DNA of 42,425 nucleotides, from NCBI GenBank assembly GCA_018304105.1, contig JAGVWX010000010.1, positions 1 through 42,425 of the forward strand, in the 5' to 3' direction. Below are positions 26,404 to 32,828 of the stretch, one piece after another (the first letter of the stretch is position 1; every line of letters begins with the position of its first letter). Source of the DNA: Candidatus Pacearchaeota archaeon (GTDB lineage Archaea; Nanobdellota; Nanobdellia; Pacearchaeales; GW2011-AR1). Both the position numbers and the translations under genes were made by a program. The notes beneath the pieces are model-generated. The model did not search any database, was not told where the DNA came from, and was given only the letters and a program-made list of their open reading frames with translations.

Positions 26404-27201
26404 ATGCAAAACACCGATTTAAAAAAAGAATTTATTGAAAAGATAAAGAGCAAGAAAGAATTAAGCGGGCTGTCAGACTCTGTTGTGAAAGATTCCCTCG
26501 AAGAATATCTTCAGAAGAACAGAATTTCTATTTATGAAAAGTCGGAGAAAGAAAAGAAATTGATTGTCAAGGAAGTCCGCTCAAGGCTAAGGCTTCTCGC
26601 GGGCAGATTCCAGAAAAGCAAAAAGAGCAAGAAAAGTTTATTGAGCTCTGGAGACATAGACAAACTTCTCAAAACTCATTCTTCAACTTCTGAAAGACTT
26701 GAGTTCTACCCTCGACTGAAAAAACTGCTGAGCGAAATGAATGTTAAATCTATTTTGGACATTGGATGTGGCTTAAACCCAATTGCTCTGGCATCAAAGA
26801 ATATCATTTATTACGCTTCAGATATAAACGAAGGCGATTTATCGATAATTTCCGAGTATTTCAAGAAAAATAATCTCGAGGGTTCAACATTCGTCATGGA
26901 CATCAGGAAAATCCCCCGTTCACTTCCAAAAACAGATGTTTGTTTGATGTTAAAACTCCTCGATGTCATTGACCCAAAGCATAATCTCTCCGAGAATATC
27001 TTAAAGAGCATCCCTTCAAAAAAAATCATCGTGAGTTTCTCAACAAAAAAGCTATCCGGAAGAAAAATGAATTTCCCAAAAAGGTTTTGGTTTGAAAAAC
27101 TTCTGGCTCGGTTAGAATATGAATTTGAAGTTCTGGAATCAGATAACGAAATATTTTATCTTATAACAAAAAAATTAGGGATTGCCTATAAACAGTTTTG
27201 A
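26404..27201 (+). CDS. Arm/Rmt (FmrO)-like 16S rRNA methyltransferase
   Basis: The 265-aa SAM-dependent methyltransferase resembles the aminoglycoside-resistance 16S rRNA m7G1405 methyltransferases. A helical N-terminal domain (residues 1-95) leads to HSSTSERLEFYPRL (the family has STRERL), then SAM motif I SILDIGCGLNPIAL (about 117-130), YASDINEGD, CLMLKLLDVID and SFSTKKLSGRK (about 211-221), each with a counterpart in ArmA/Rmt. It probably methylates 16S rRNA in the A-site region; archaeal target and biological role are unknown. Its end overlaps the convergent PilC-like gene by 27 nt. Confidence 0.75.
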   Translation: MQNTDLKKEFIEKIKSKKELSGLSDSVVKDSLEEYLQKNRISIYEKSEKEKKLIVKEVRSRLRLLAGRFQKSKKSKKSLLSSGDIDKLLKTHSSTSERLEFYPRLKKLLSEMNVKSILDIGCGLNPIALASKNIIYYASDINEGDLSIISEYFKKNNLEGSTFVMDIRKIPRSLPKTDVCLMLKLLDVIDPKHNLSENILKSIPSKKIIVSFSTKKLSGRKMNFPKRFWFEKLLARLEYEFEVLESDNEIFYLITKKLGIAYKQF

Positions 27202-28050
27202 GCCGGTTGAAATTAAAAACGCGGCAATCATCATTATAAACGAATGTTTCAGCCCCGCTTTAAGGCTCCCTTCAGTAAGCTTCCCAATAACGAGTCCGAT
27301 AAAAAATCCTTGTGCGATTAACAAGTAAAGAAAAGACGCTGAAAACTGCTCGGGGTTTATCGGTTCTCCGCTTCCGCCCCCTCCAAAAAATCCTATTCCC
27401 AAATCTTGTCCTGCGCTCGTTATTCCACCCAAACCTCCCGCCCCCGCAGTCAAAGGGATTATCTTAAATTCCATCACAAGAATAATTCCGATAAATATAA
27501 AGAAAATTATATATCCCTGGACAACAAGCCCGTAAATTGCAGATTTTCTTTCCTTCTTTAATTTTTCAACTTCTGCAATAGATTTCGCAGTCGAATCTAA
27601 AATAAAATCTATGTCTCCTCCGGCTTTCTCCGCTTCTTTAATCAGCCCAATCGCCCTTTTCACAACAACGCTGTCAACTTCTTTTGAAAAAGTCTTAAAC
27701 GCTTCGCTTACAGGGATTCCAAGCTCTATCTGGTTAGCCAATTTCTCGATATGAGGATTCAGCACATCAAAATCTTTCTTCCGCATATTGATGATTCCTT
27801 TGCTTATCGGAGTTCCGGTTGAAACTGTTTCTGCAAGATTTCTTGTAAACTCAAGAAACATTTCATTAATCTTTTCAGATTTTCCGCTTTCTACAGCAAA
27901 TCCGATTATGAATGGTAGGGCAACAACCCCTAAAGAAATTCCCATTAAGAAAAATAACATTTGCTGGTTTGCATAGAAGAAAGCAAAGTCTAACGCCATG
28001 ATAATCGCTCCGGCAATTATTCCAAACCAGTGCATTTTTTTCAGTTTCAT
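27175..28050 (-). CDS. Type II/IV secretion F-domain membrane protein (PilC/TadC/ArlJ-like)
   Basis: The 291-aa polytopic protein is the platform of a type IV pilus or secretion system. It has a T2SSF cytosolic domain (residues 65-170: EFTRNLAETVSTGTPISKGI and GIPVSEAFKTF, GLIKEAEKAGGDIDFIL) between membrane helices and a glycine-rich loop near residue 205-225. It follows the other PilC-like gene by a 1-nt gap, giving a tandem pair under one ATPase, as in several archaeal pilus clusters. Confidence 0.9.
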   Translation of the reverse strand: MKLKKMHWFGIIAGAIIMALDFAFFYANQQMLFFLMGISLGVVALPFIIGFAVESGKSEKINEMFLEFTRNLAETVSTGTPISKGIINMRKKDFDVLNPHIEKLANQIELGIPVSEAFKTFSKEVDSVVVKRAIGLIKEAEKAGGDIDFILDSTAKSIAEVEKLKKERKSAIYGLVVQGYIIFFIFIGIILVMEFKIIPLTAGAGGLGGITSAGQDLGIGFFGGGGSGEPINPEQFSASFLYLLIAQGFFIGLVIGKLTEGSLKAGLKHSFIMMIAAFLISTGSKLFIGNP

Positions 28051-28051
28051 A

Positions 28052-29344
28052 TTAGTATGCGGGTTGCCTCATTTGTAAAAATACCAGGAAAATCACATTT
28101 AAAACAGCTATGACTGCAACAGCAAGAATGCTTATTTGAGTCGGGCCAAAACCAATATTCATGCCAGAAATAGCCATCATAACAATCATCAGCAAAAATA
28201 CCATCGGCGCAGCAATGACTATGCTGATATAAATGTCTAAGAAGGTCTCAACTAAGTGCGTATATTTTTCTCTTTCCAATCGGTAAGATAAAAGCAGAGA
28301 TTCCGCTCTCTTCTCAAAAAATTCAGAAAGATTCGCGCCAGAACTGATAGTAACTGAAAGTCCTGTGAACAGCTCTGCAAGTTTCTCGCTCGGGGCAGTT
28401 TTGGCTGCGTTGTTCAAAGAAGTAGTCAAATCATACCCATACAAGTTAATCTGATTCATTATCTTTCTTATCTCCTTTCTCAAGAATGGATACTCCTTGC
28501 TTAATCCGATGATTCTGAATATTTCTGTGGGTTCAATTCCTGCGCCGGTAATCGCGCTCATGTGAATGACTGCAAACGGCAATTCCTGGTCAATCCTCGT
28601 GCCAATGGATTTTTTTTCAGTAGTTGGATAAAAGTAAACCGCTAAAAAAGCCACTATCGGCCCGGCTATCGGAATCCAGATTAATTTTGTAGCCATCGCC
28701 AAATATCCGCTATCCCTCAATCCAATGAAAGGCCAGATAGAGGACACATTAAAAAAAACAAAAAACAAGCTCGCAAAAAAAGACAGCACAAAAGCCAACA
28801 GCACAGTCAGATACATCATCGCAACATAAGACTCAAACAAAATTTCCACGTTTGCTTTTCTCAGTCCTTCCCCAAGTTCCTTGAAAGCCCCTTTCTTGAC
28901 TGCTTTGCTTGCCGCATTCAAGAATAAGCGATTGGCAAGTTTAAGATACCCCCTCGACGCTTTGAACTCTGTATATTTTTCCTGCTCGTCAATGTCTCTT
29001 CTCTTTATTTTCTTTACAAAATTATCGCTTATGTTCAGTTCTTTCAAAAACCGCGTCTTGTCTTTTGCATGGAGGACAACATCCACTCCGGAAAGGCCCC
29101 TATACTTGATTCGTTCAAGCTTTCTTTCTTTCTTTGATGGAAGTTTTTCCGCAAATGTAATATCCTTCAATAACTCTGGAACGTTGTCGTTTATTATTCT
29201 TAGGCTTTCAATAATCGAATTTATCGCCCCGTCTAAAAGTTTCTTTTCATCATCTGCCGCCGAATCATATCTGGAGGCATAGCTGGCGATTTCTCTGAGC
29301 ATTGATATTTCAGTATCTATATTTTTTCTTAGCTCGTCTATCAT
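28052..29344 (-). CDS. Second PilC/TadC-like pilus platform protein
   Basis: The 430-aa protein has a helical cytosolic N-terminal region of about 130 residues, membrane helices near residues 155-225, a T2SSF domain (LPFAVIHMSAITGAGIEPTE, LYGYDLTTSLNNAAKTAPSE, LSVTISSGANLSEFFE), and two C-terminal helices. It is expected to pair with the neighbouring 291-aa protein as platform. I chose the ATG at 29344; a TTG at 29389 in the same frame adds 15 residues (KGWRLRREIKTLSA) that look like real helix. The 5' end overlaps a separate small frame (29310-29447), so the true start is uncertain. Confidence 0.88.
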   Translation of the reverse strand: MIDELRKNIDTEISMLREIASYASRYDSAADDEKKLLDGAINSIIESLRIINDNVPELLKDITFAEKLPSKKERKLERIKYRGLSGVDVVLHAKDKTRFLKELNISDNFVKKIKRRDIDEQEKYTEFKASRGYLKLANRLFLNAASKAVKKGAFKELGEGLRKANVEILFESYVAMMYLTVLLAFVLSFFASLFFVFFNVSSIWPFIGLRDSGYLAMATKLIWIPIAGPIVAFLAVYFYPTTEKKSIGTRIDQELPFAVIHMSAITGAGIEPTEIFRIIGLSKEYPFLRKEIRKIMNQINLYGYDLTTSLNNAAKTAPSEKLAELFTGLSVTISSGANLSEFFEKRAESLLLSYRLEREKYTHLVETFLDIYISIVIAAPMVFLLMIVMMAISGMNIGFGPTQISILAVAVIAVLNVIFLVFLQMRQPAY

Positions 29345-29447
29345 AGCAGACAGCGTCTTTATTTCTCTCCGCAACCGCCAGCCTTTCAACGATATCTTTC
29401 ATTGCAGCCAAGAGCTGCGCCACAACTATCAAATCCTCTTTTTTCAT
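29310..29447 (-). CDS. Possible small helical protein overlapping the PilC-like gene start
   Basis: The 45-aa frame begins MKKEDLIVVAQLLAAMKDIV, a strong amphipathic helix, and ends with a basic segment. The ATG is preceded at 21-30 nt by a TATA-like ATTATTTAAACG, which supports transcription starting here. The last 35 nt overlap the start of the PilC-like frame. The helix seems to continue better in the PilC-like frame (REIKTLSAMIDELRKNID), so this may be a frameshifted or overlapping small gene. Confidence 0.4.
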   Translation of the reverse strand: MKKEDLIVVAQLLAAMKDIVERLAVAERNKDAVCYDRRAKKKYRY

Positions 29448-29501
29448 AAACTAAATAGCTCGATATCGTTTAAATAATTTTCTTCTCAACTATTCTTTAT
29501 G

Positions 29502-29523
29502 TAGCCAGCACATCGCCTGGCTA
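29502..29523 (-). other. Intergenic hairpin between pilus ATPase and PilC genes
   Basis: TAGCCAG/CTGGCTA form a 7-bp stem around an 8-nt loop, 10 nt after the ATPase stop codon and upstream of the TATA-like box at about 29468-29478. It may separate two transcripts, or stabilise the 3' end of the ATPase transcript. Confidence 0.4.
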
Positions 29524-29532
29524 TGCACTCAG

Positions 29533-31059
29533 TCATTCCTTAATTCCAAACTTCTGAAGCACTCCAACGGGATTCTTATGAAAATCATTCACTATCCATC
29601 CGACTTGGTCGAAATCAAAAATTCCTTTTCTATACAAAGTGTAAAGCAATTTCGCTCTTGTCGCCATATCCTGGTAAAGTTTGTCTATAGGAATTCCTGT
29701 TCTTATGGATATTTTTTCGAACGCCTTGCTTTGTTTTTTCGAGTAGAATACATCTTTCCCTGCGTCCCATTTGAACGGGGTGTTTACAATCGCTGTTCCG
29801 TCCATGTTTACGTTTACAATTTCCACAATTTCTCTAACTTTTCTAGTATCTTGTTTTCCAACTCTTGCATGTGTGGCTATGACAACACAGTCTAATGTAT
29901 TAACGAGAGTAGGCGACAAGCTTATCGGAGGAGTTTGCAGTCTTCTGATGAGCGTGTCAACAGAGTCCGAGTGCATGGTGCTTATCGAAGAATGCCCCGA
30001 AGCCATTCCTTGAAATAAGACGAATGCCTCTTTTCCTCTGACTTCTCCGACTATTAGATAATCAGGTGTTTGTCTGAAAGAAGCTTTCAAAATTTCAAAC
30101 AAGTCAATTTCTCCGACTTTTCCAACTCCTATGGAAGTTCTCGCAACAGCAGGCAGCCAGTTCTCTCTAGGTAAGTTAATTTCTCTAGTGTCTTCAATTG
30201 AAACAACTCTCGCTTCTGGAGGAATGAAAAACGCCAGCGCATTCAGCAAGGTGGTCTTGCCTGAAGCGGTTCCTCCAGCAACAAGGATATTTGATTTGTT
30301 TTCAATCAAAATCCAGAAGTACGCAAGCATTTCTGGAGAGAGCGTATTCATCGCAATTAATTGAGTTGGAGTCCACGGAATTTTCGTAAACTTTCTTATT
30401 GTAAACGTGGGCCCTCTTGAAGAGATGTCTTTAGTGTAAGTGGCATTGACTCTTGACCCATCTGGCAAAGTTCCGTCCAGCAACGGCTGCGCATAGGAAA
30501 CATATCTTCCGGTCCTTTGGGCTAATTTCTCGACAAAACTCGCAAGCTTGTCTAGGTCCCTGTAAACAATATTTGTTCTAAGATTCCTAAACACCCTATG
30601 AACCAGGAAAATCGGAGTATTCGCCCCATTGCATTCTATATCTTCAATAAAATAATCTCTAAGCAAAGGGTCTATTTCATTCAGCCCTATAAAATCCCTA
30701 AAAAGATAATAAAATATTTTCTTGTAGCTTTCGGAAGGGACTTTCATATTTAATTCGTCAATTAATAATCTCGCAGTTTTGTCAATGTAATTTGTTGTGG
30801 CTTCCAGAGTATTTTCAACAGCAACGTTAACATTAATCAGTTCAAGCATCGCTTCTTCAACTCTCACCAGAATCGCTTTTTCTTCTTCGTCAAGGATTGG
30901 CTCTTCTAACTCATAAACAACTTCATTCAGCTTGCTGTCCCAAAAAATATGTGCCGACGCGTAAGGCGAAATCAGCATATACCTAACATCTATTCCTCTT
31001 TTGTCTTTATATCTCGGAAGAGGCGGAACAGCCGGATTCAAATTCATCTGTTCGACCAT
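29533..31059 (-). CDS. Type IV pilus/secretion assembly ATPase (PilB/TadA/ArlI family)
   Basis: This 508-aa hexameric secretion ATPase powers pilin assembly from the cytosolic side. The N-terminal half (residues 1-240) contains NVNVAVENTLEA and IGLNEIDPLLRDYFIEDIECNG, typical of archaeal GspE-like ATPases. The catalytic half has Walker A GGTASGKTTLL (about 253-263), Asp box VVSIEDTREI, Walker B DYLIVGEVRGKEA and the His box GHSSISTMHSDS. It follows three pilin-like genes, with a TATA-like TTTAAATAAA about 20-30 nt before the ATG, and precedes two PilC-like genes. Confidence 0.95.
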   Translation of the reverse strand: MVEQMNLNPAVPPLPRYKDKRGIDVRYMLISPYASAHIFWDSKLNEVVYELEEPILDEEEKAILVRVEEAMLELINVNVAVENTLEATTNYIDKTARLLIDELNMKVPSESYKKIFYYLFRDFIGLNEIDPLLRDYFIEDIECNGANTPIFLVHRVFRNLRTNIVYRDLDKLASFVEKLAQRTGRYVSYAQPLLDGTLPDGSRVNATYTKDISSRGPTFTIRKFTKIPWTPTQLIAMNTLSPEMLAYFWILIENKSNILVAGGTASGKTTLLNALAFFIPPEARVVSIEDTREINLPRENWLPAVARTSIGVGKVGEIDLFEILKASFRQTPDYLIVGEVRGKEAFVLFQGMASGHSSISTMHSDSVDTLIRRLQTPPISLSPTLVNTLDCVVIATHARVGKQDTRKVREIVEIVNVNMDGTAIVNTPFKWDAGKDVFYSKKQSKAFEKISIRTGIPIDKLYQDMATRAKLLYTLYRKGIFDFDQVGWIVNDFHKNPVGVLQKFGIKE

Positions 31060-31089: not shown

Positions 31090-31635
31090 CTATCTCCTGG
31101 ATGTTTCCTTAATGTCTATCTGCGGATATGGTTGCCCGCCAAGATTCTCTATCGAAAAAGAATAAGGCGTAGAGGCCGCAGTGAATTTCTTATCTTCTTC
31201 GGTTCCGGCATAAGTTATATTTGTGACATTCTGGTATTTCAATACCAGCCTTGTGTAAGCAGACCTTTCTGTTTCATAAGAAGTTAAATAAACGCTACCT
31301 TCCCTAATCTCAAAGCCAATCTCCGAGTAGGGCTTGCTAAGTCCGTCCACAATAAAAATTATCTCGTTGCCTGTGGAATTAATTATCAGCTCCCCTTTCT
31401 TCATTGTAAACGCCGGAATATTTCTGACATTTCCTTGCCCGCGATAAGTAAGTTCTCCAATCCGGTCGTCCCATGCGTTCAACGACTCAATAGATTGTTC
31501 AACTAAAATTCTATCTCTTGATTCATTTATCCTCGGCGTTACTATTGCCAGGACAATTCCTATTAATGTTATCCCAATAAGGGTATACAACACCGTTTCA
31601 ATCCAAATTTGCGCTTTCTTTTTCATATTAGACAT
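31090..31635 (-). CDS. Type IV pilin-like protein
   Basis: The 181-aa protein begins SNMKKKAQIWIETVLYTLIG, a class III leader in which the usual Gly before the cleavage site is Ala (KKKA), with Glu in the following helix. The head is about 145 residues and ends with QPYPQIDIKETSRR. It overlaps the upstream pilin-like gene by 8 nt and lies 30 nt before the ATPase gene. A minor or pseudopilin role is inferred. Confidence 0.75.
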   Translation of the reverse strand: MSNMKKKAQIWIETVLYTLIGITLIGIVLAIVTPRINESRDRILVEQSIESLNAWDDRIGELTYRGQGNVRNIPAFTMKKGELIINSTGNEIIFIVDGLSKPYSEIGFEIREGSVYLTSYETERSAYTRLVLKYQNVTNITYAGTEEDKKFTAASTPYSFSIENLGGQPYPQIDIKETSRR

Positions 31636-32197
31636 TTAGCAGAACACCATTGTCGCAAGCCCTACCGATTTGAATTCCGTCAGTTTGCTTGCACATTCTT
31701 TCGTTTTTTAGTATCGGATAAATCTCCACACTGTCAAACTTAACGGATGAATTGTAAACATAAGTTTTCACGCCCCCATTTTCGGGAAGAGTCAGCTTAG
31801 TCGAGCTCAAATCTAGCATTCTAATTTCACCAACACTATTACCTGCATTCGAATTATTCTTAACTTCAACACCCACACTTTCTCCCCCTCCCAAAAACTG
31901 AATCCTCAACCCTCCAATATTATCAAGCTTTCCTTGAGAAACACTATCCGCGCCTATTGAAAGCGCATATAAATAATGGTATCCTCCGCCAAAAACGTCT
32001 TCGCGTTTATAGCAATTATAATCAAACTCTTCATAGAAAGTGAAATAGTTTTCATACCCCACACATTCAGTTCCTTCATTAAGAGTATCCCTCACAAACG
32101 GAACTACAAACCCGGCTATAAAAACCGCAGCCACCACGGTTATTAGCACGAGCGAGATAGTTGCAACAACAGAAGACAATCCTTTTTTATTATTCAT
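31628..32197 (-). CDS. Type IV pilin-like protein
   Basis: The 189-aa protein begins MNNKKGLSSVVATISLVLIT, a typical archaeal prepilin (DUF1628-like) N terminus cut after KKG. I chose the ATG at 32197, which overlaps the upstream stop by 8 nt; an in-frame ATG further up would add 12 residues ahead of the leader. The head has several Cys (GTECVGYEN, NCYKRED, MCKQTDG, RACDNG), likely disulfides. Probably co-assembled with the neighbouring pilins. Confidence 0.78.
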   Translation of the reverse strand: MNNKKGLSSVVATISLVLITVVAAVFIAGFVVPFVRDTLNEGTECVGYENYFTFYEEFDYNCYKREDVFGGGYHYLYALSIGADSVSQGKLDNIGGLRIQFLGGGESVGVEVKNNSNAGNSVGEIRMLDLSSTKLTLPENGGVKTYVYNSSVKFDSVEIYPILKNERMCKQTDGIQIGRACDNGVLLNV

Positions 32198-32798
32198 ATA
32201 TTGTACTAATGCCATAATCTGAATCACAAACATGAGCTACTTTTTCCGTATTTGTCTCTCCTAATAAAATCGGCACCGCAATTATTGTATCCCCCGAGTC
32301 TACCCCCTCAATAAGCTCATAAGTCTCAGTATTTCCTGGATTTACAGTCACGCCGCTTCGCCCAATTTCTTTAATTTCCCCTTTCCCTTTTATTCTCATC
32401 TCTACTCCATAAATCGAAACGCTCCCAATATTCTGAACGGACAATTTTCCCTTTCCGCTTCCATCATTATAAGCTTCTATAAGAAAATCAACTTCTTCGC
32501 AGGACATTTCAATAGCTCGCTCGTTTTTTTCAATCGTTTCTCCAATGAAACTTCTTGCCCAAAAGAAAACGATTACAGCAAGGATAAGAGTAATTGAAAC
32601 AAGCAAAACCGTAGCTACAACTGGAGACAGTCCCCTTTTTCCATTTTGCAGAAATGGGAAAGTGTAGGTAGCGCAGCTTCCTCTTTTCCCGCCCATTCCG
32701 GAAGGGAAAGTGTAGGTAGCGCAGCTTCCTCTTTTCCCGCCCATTCCGGAAGGGAAAGTGTAGGTAGCGTAGCTTCCTCTCTTATTTAGAACATTCAT
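32190..32798 (-). CDS. Type IV pilin with leader expanded by tandem repeats
   Basis: The 202-aa protein has the canonical pilin start KRGLSPVVATVLLVSITLIL at residue 54, but the leader before it is 55 residues long instead of 5-15. It consists of KRGSYATYTFPSGMGG, KRGSCATYTFPSGMGG and KRGSCATYTFPFLQNG, so KRG occurs four times. The repeats come from a 48-bp tandem DNA repeat. The mature part has a small head of about 130 residues. A TATA-like TTTTTAAATATT (32818-32829) is 20-30 nt before the ATG, so the repeats are transcribed. An ATG after the repeats is absent, so they are probably translated. Confidence 0.75.
   Translation of the reverse strand: MNVLNKRGSYATYTFPSGMGGKRGSCATYTFPSGMGGKRGSCATYTFPFLQNGKRGLSPVVATVLLVSITLILAVIVFFWARSFIGETIEKNERAIEMSCEEVDFLIEAYNDGSGKGKLSVQNIGSVSIYGVEMRIKGKGEIKEIGRSGVTVNPGNTETYELIEGVDSGDTIIAVPILLGETNTEKVAHVCDSDYGISTIYE
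32656..32780. repeat. 48-bp tandem repeat (2.6 copies) inside a pilin leader
   Basis: Copies at 32656-32703 and 32704-32751 are identical. A third partial copy, 32752-32780, has one C-to-T difference and diverges after about 29 nt. The unit is 16 codons, so the frame is kept. It contains GGGAAA and TTTCCC as possible stem arms and the palindrome TTCCGGAA. Confidence 0.9.
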
Positions 32799-32828
32799 TA
32801 CTTTGAATAACCACGAATATTTAAAAAC

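Follow-up and report, generated by a model that had tools for sequence, protein, structure and literature searches.

The leader of an archaeal type IV pilin gene in a Candidatus Pacearchaeota genome carries a tandem repeat of a 48-bp unit and, with it, four K-R-G motifs of the kind recognized by prepilin peptidases. The locus lies in a 42,425-nucleotide stretch of contig JAGVWX010000010.1 (the window), and it raises the question of whether the repeat belongs to pilin maturation or came from elsewhere. The reading that best accounts for the observations is that the 48-bp unit is very probably a copy of a short mobile, coding-compatible double-hairpin DNA element of Pacearchaeota, which would have duplicated its site on insertion and, in the pilin gene, then expanded by slippage.

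The pilin locus and its repeat array

The relevant features of the window are the following.

32190..32798 (-): archaeal type IV pilin gene, 202 aa, with the array in its leader (open reading frame and Pilin_N match)
32816..32827 (-): TATA-like box TTTTTAAATATT, about 18 nt upstream of the pilin ATG (from sequence; putative function)
32775..32783 (-): KRG codons no. 1, left direct repeat (putative landing site)
32728..32783 (-): unit 1, AAGAGAGG - hairpin 1 (GG-A-AGC/GCT-A-CC) - TACAC - hairpin 2 (TTTCCC/GGGAAA) - AAAAGAGG
32680..32735 (-): unit 2, differing from unit 1 by a single base within the element
32632..32687 (-): unit 3, first half the same, hairpin 2 different (TTTCCCATTT/AAATGGAAA)
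32631..32639 (-): KRG codons no. 4, right direct repeat; prepilin peptidase cut predicted after 32631 (PibD rule)
31628..32233 (-): second pilin-like gene, MNNKKG-LSSVV..., without an insert here (its positional counterpart in the congener G005 has one unit)
27175..31059 (-): type IV filament operon, T2SSE ATPase and two T2SSF membrane proteins (domain matches)
Example peptide of the pilin leader: GSCATYTFPSGMGGK

The pilin reading frame translates as MNVLNKRGSYATYTFPSGMGGKRGSCATYTFPSGMGGKRGSCATYTFPFLQNGKRG followed by LSPVVATVLL..., with KRG at residues 6-8, 22-24, 38-40 and 54-56, the last in KRGLSPVV, just as the initial annotation of this DNA had counted. The Pilin_N (PF07790) match, which begins at residue 55, is marginal (E 7e-5, 24.0 bits versus a cut-off of 25.2), and is accompanied by a K/R-G site before a hydrophobic domain. 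On the same strand and 3' of the pilin lie the second pilin-like gene, a third small protein, the T2SSE ATPase and the two T2SSF proteins, neighbours that mark the locus as a type IV filament operon. The sister species and genus orthologues support the start ATG at 32798. The same TTTTTAAA box precedes the ATG by about 18 nt in the sister and in orthologues that lack the insert, and its retention with and without the insert supports this codon as the pilin start. The closeness of the box to the ATG suggests a pilin mRNA with little or no 5' leader RNA, and its retention likewise suggests that the entire array is translated as part of the pilin.

Tandem Repeats Finder (TRF) detects a single array in the window (32656-32780, period 48, 2.6 copies, 98% matches; chance expectation 0.00). 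The two identical 48-bp copies reported initially are present, at 32656-32703 and 32704-32751, and the first 26 bases of a third (32752-32799) match with one difference. Read from KRG to KRG, the array consists of three 48-bp units whose neighbours share 8-bp ends, each of 16 codons and stop-free in frame; the second half of unit 3 encodes FLQNG where the other units have SGMGG.

Detection of dispersed copies

An exact and blastn-level search of the organism's own genome for the 48-bp unit, the check proposed by the initial annotation, returned no second copy. Searching at the sequence level alone would thus suggest a single-locus repeat, as the dispersed relatives are visible only with a model that combines sequence and structure. 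The first such covariance model (R1), built on five units and run on 200 genomes of the order, gave matches in unrelated genes, in support of the suggestion that the repeat is a dispersed element whose insertion in frame is a coincidence. Wide occurrence in non-coding DNA, which the initial annotation had named as a finding that would refute its own account of the repeat, is not what the matches indicate: the majority of copies lie either at start codons or within open reading frames that they keep in phase.

The E-values of the model are rough, and many R1 matches below about 25-30 bits are due to chance; weak matches in conserved genes (L112, L113, L115, L116, L120, L121, L124-L126, L128 and L130) were judged to be of this kind. 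A degenerate DNA pattern run on 181 genomes of the family gave 11 matches, fewer than the reversed control; except in the pilin leaders of the source genome (G000), its sister (G001) and G005, these too are chance matches. When a refined model (R2) was run on a sample of 378 genomes from across the class, the element turned up in 7, all belonging to this Pacearchaeota family, a confinement that doubles as a negative control for the model; a closer search added copies in other genera of the same family. Copy numbers per genome are low, ranging from 1 to about 14, as counted from search matches. None of three exact element patterns was found in viral contigs, and the part of the literature on Pacearchaeota and DPANN archaea that was covered contains no description of such elements.

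Architecture, folding and covariation

The element consists of two hairpins linked by a conserved YRYGCTTTYC core (YRYGCTTTCC in the pilin units) and is about 45-67 nt long. Its ends are near-direct repeats of a purine-rich site, either AAAAGAGG, which corresponds to the K-R-G codons, or very often ATGAAAAAGAG at a start codon. The element has the form A-x-A'-y-A. The unit of the sister species has a perfect stem, GGTGGC-ATA-GCCACC, followed by TTTCCC...GGGAAA, and the second pilin of G005 has the same layout in other letters, AGGTGAGTACACAACCT-GCGC-TTTCCGTTT-AGTA-AAACGGAAA-AAGGG. At locus L147 the end repeat continues into the stem.

Compared with shuffled sequence, the array in the window folds more favourably, both as RNA (z -2.65) and as DNA (z -4.0). 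Covariation in the first five units alone is not significant. In an alignment of 26 copies, two-sided changes occur at five of the seven pairs of helix 1, and the whole structure has 37 compensated cells versus 13 in shuffles, with none of 500 shuffles scoring as high; the alignment was fitted to the structure, and these values are upper estimates of the effect. The signal is lost when the helix partners in the same 26 copies are slid against each other. Rfam 15 covariance models, run against 12 element loci, matched only tRNA and 5S rRNA.

Sites of the element and a possible regulatory role

Copies occur at three types of site: in frame within proteins, at start codons, and adjoining 5S rRNA or tRNA genes. 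G005 is the richest genome, with about fourteen copies. Its in-frame insertions comprise a tandem array of three 45-bp units in the T2SSE secretion ATPase and one copy in the linker of GatD (assigned by Pfam GatD_N/Asparaginase), the latter absent from seven aligned congener orthologues. Other in-frame copies are in the leaders of pilins and signal-peptide proteins, including two pilin-type leaders of G005, those of pilin 2 and of a pilin-like protein. The pilin-like protein, encoded on the same contig as pilin 2, has its element at C8:50528-50583 (L137:1529-1584) and reads MVNKREKQKFISVFPIVDGKRG before the cut and FLRIVEASIAILVIL after it. The G005 unit is free of stops in all six frames, and the element is read in different frames in this genome (KRGCEYATCVFQASW and KEDASTQPAFSKQVG), a use that selection on one peptide cannot explain and DNA insertion can.

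At start codons, ATGAAAAAGAG appears on both sides of the element and the gene begins in the right-hand repeat. All four further loci in the source genome are of this type (C12:36039-36105, C6:34373-34439, C5:11706-11772 and C16:15875-15940), as are copies at the putative PyrH-like start MKKRIIVLSLGGS of G042 (named from its sequence), at a pilin of G008 and at several membrane or secreted proteins. For the most part, copies at start sites have the true ATG 11-13 nt before the element end, in hairpin 2 on its 3' arm or adjoining that arm. A further ATG, upstream, opens a reading frame of 6-20 codons; one such frame, MKKSEINFPRFPFKLIGVWE followed by a stop, overlaps the main ATG. Three of the source-genome copies (C5, C6 and C12; loci L167, L150 and L149) are near-identical 67-nt sequences at the starts of unrelated genes, with an upstream frame MKKSEINFPRFPF(K/N)... 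that ends in a stop overlapping the true start codon or directly next to it. Contig C14 of G005 (L132:739-936) has a cluster of elements between tRNA and 5S rRNA genes, partly N-masked.

These start sites bring regulation into consideration. It may be, although we think it rather unlikely, that the element is a mobile riboregulator that targets translation starts, duplicates the start codon, leaves the true start in or near a hairpin arm and adds an upstream reading frame, and so provides portable translational control, with insertions of the pilin-leader type being the same element on KRG codons. A conventional cis-regulatory RNA, in which a start-codon stem and short upstream frame gate downstream translation and the coding copies are side products, is also unlikely. 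The position of the ATG and the upstream frame in most start-site copies would suit it, as would covariation of the RNA type. It does not readily account for in-frame copies deep in GatD and the ATPase, for tandem arrays or for copies near 5S rRNA and tRNA genes, however, and the copies in the window sit within a translated leader. Patchy presence, the lack of an Rfam match and genome-specific sequence subfamilies also argue against it.

Evidence for copying and insertion

The mobile element reading draws its main support from comparisons between and within loci. Within a genome, copies of the element in unrelated genes have nearly identical interiors (100% between C13 and C4 of G005 and 98% between C12 and C5 of G000), while their flanks are at background similarity, and none of 2000 label permutations reached the observed sequence coherence within genomes. 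The G005 ATPase provides an empty and a filled site: its duplicated, A-rich segment reads CCGCAAAAACAAACTAAAGATTTT (CCGCAAAAACAAACTAAAG) where it is empty; where it is filled, three units stand between CCGCAAAAAGAGG and GGAAAAGAAAATAAAGATTTT. The N-terminal linker of this protein (L133:1099-3201) contains the duplicated segment EKKFLPEPLLGKKYPFFEISNLPQ, the three-copy array and a decayed-looking, older copy, KEATQIMFSKQIENEKK. Across loci, end repeats fit their own partners better than shuffled partners (p about 0.006), a modest effect that stems partly from shared A-richness. Such locus-matched repeats are compatible with target-site duplication.

Insertion would occur at purine-rich ATGAAAAAGAGG sites of the coding strand, with the site duplicated in the process. 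The codons for KRG and MKKR resemble AAAAGAGG, and pilin leaders, the n-regions of signal peptides and gene starts may therefore be preferred and tolerant landing sites. The CTTTYC core is complementary to the purine-rich site, and target choice by base pairing of the core with the site is therefore possible.

Mobilization could in principle be carried out in trans by a Y1 (RAYT or IS200-like) transposase acting on a REP-type element, although we regard this as a weak candidate. With its hairpins and with a YRCGCTTTYC core that is complementary to the element's purine-rich target, it resembles the guide sequences of IS200/IS605 ends. Y1 genes are present in G000, G008, G042, G071 and G098, but none was found in five other element-bearing genomes, all incomplete (G005, the richest, G001, G035, G107 and G029), and the Y1 genes examined have no flanking element. 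Like REPs, the element is a short hairpin-based repeat; it differs in its intragenic location, in the lack of a consistent Y1 partner and in a foot that varies among aligned copies, with no constant GTAG/CGTC, whereas REPs are extragenic and 20-40 bp long (PMC3733652).

History of the pilin leader and processing

The nearest named relative of the source genome is the sister, Ca. Pacearchaeota archaeon UBA73, whose pilin leader, MTALKKRG-GIATCAFPFLLGG-KRG-ISPVV, has exactly one 16-codon unit in the same place. The remaining eight pilin orthologues of the genus have short leaders with no unit, such as MKVFAKRG-LSPVV. This distribution implies entry into the leader in an ancestor of the two species, or repeated loss, and the single unit in the sister versus three here places multiplication in the source genome only. 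A single copy would thus already have been in the leader when the two species diverged and would later have grown to three units, presumably by slippage between repeats, so that a leader of about 8 residues became one of 56. Each unit is 48 bp long and contains no in-frame stop, which keeps the gene open.

Inserts are also present in three other pilin leaders. Those of G115 (L079 1407-; NRGFSCFSRGTRKKG before LSPV) and G118 (L096 906-; GRGQPSCFSRKARKRG before ISAVV, with an R2 score of only 13 bits) are long, with different inserts before the cut site, and are possibly a distant subfamily of the element. In G042 (L072 1476-), the leader MEIKKRG-SQAQSMLLNQ-RKG, followed by LSPVV, has a KRG-flanked insert in which the element core is absent.

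Archaeal prepilin peptidases cut before a hydrophobic stretch (the PibD rule; PMC4371748). Of the four KRG motifs, the last alone precedes such a stretch, uncharged and with a mean hydropathy of 3.0 versus -0.3 to -0.45 after the other three, and a single cut between KRG and LSPVV is accordingly what the rule predicts. The cut should occur at the last KRG only, leaving the mature pilin unchanged, and we infer that the additional KRG motifs are by-products, copies of the duplicated landing site.

The initial annotation had proposed that a change in repeat number could be a phase- or length-variable switch for pilin maturation. Perfect tandem copies do look recent, as a leader-specific switch of this kind would have it, but the proposal is now very unlikely: a 16-codon unit cannot shift the frame, the unit is not specific to pilins, and only one KRG has a hydrophobic domain after it. 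Moreover, the sister has one copy and the other congeners none, with the gene apparently not lost. A purely local origin, in which template switching at an A-rich site yields A - anti-A - A with no mobility, would fit the A-x-A'-y-A form and the end repeat that extends into the stem at L147, yet it is likewise very unlikely, given that the core is conserved and that copies in unrelated genes of the same genome have near-identical interiors. An assembly artefact is very improbable, for although the window comes from an incomplete assembly of 23 contigs and perfect tandem copies are prone to mis-assembly, the same unit and similar tandem arrays occur in independent assemblies (UBA73 and G005), and the 143-bp array is within short-read reach.

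Relationship to known elements

The double-hairpin element looks like an archaeal equivalent of the selfish palindromes found within protein-coding genes in Rickettsia. These Rickettsia palindromic elements (RPEs) are 105-146 bp long and found in frame in many genes (Ogata et al. 2000; PMC2229807, PMC10969869). RPEs share with the element the character of short dispersed palindromes that lie in frame in unrelated protein genes, with the frame used being open and the host proteins presumably working; they also occur in RNA genes, and Pacearchaeota copies adjoin 5S rRNA and tRNA genes. The element has copies at unrelated loci of one genome, open-frame coding insertions and a conserved palindromic structure. 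At 45-67 nt, with two short stems and direct repeats at its ends, it departs from the 105-146 bp, one long stem and terminal inverted repeats of RPEs. It is further distinguished by the constant YRYGCTTTYC core, its archaeal host, tandem arrays and a main use of start codons and KRG leaders. By description, the element appears to work like an RPE but is not a member of that group, being set apart by size and by the single-stem architecture of RPEs.

Other comparisons are more limited. The Yersinia repeats YPAL/RU-2 similarly have internal rather than terminal inverted repeats, target duplications of variable length and empty and filled sites, but YPAL is 168 bp long, mostly intergenic and found in an unrelated host (PMC2229807). 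Miniature inverted-repeat transposable elements (MITEs) are likewise small, non-coding by themselves, dispersed and flanked by repeats; unlike them, the element has no terminal inverted repeats in aligned copies, and no parent transposon was found at the Y1 loci examined. The host gene itself resembles archaeal type IV pilins (PF07790) in its KRG before a hydrophobic domain and its adjoining filament operon, and differs in a leader of 56 residues, compared with about 4-10 in genus orthologues without the insert.

Implications

In archaeal pilins, repeated KRG motifs and oddly long leaders can stem from insertions and need not mark extra processing sites, and should be read with that in mind. 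With empty and filled sites, more than one reading frame in use and tandem arrays, the element would offer a clean system for studying how elements of less than 70 nt move and lengthen proteins. Most of what is known of mobile palindromes that code for protein comes from Rickettsia and Wolbachia. If the interpretation given here is true, a smaller and structurally different family exists in DPANN archaea with tiny genomes, and in-frame mobile palindromes would have arisen outside bacteria as well.
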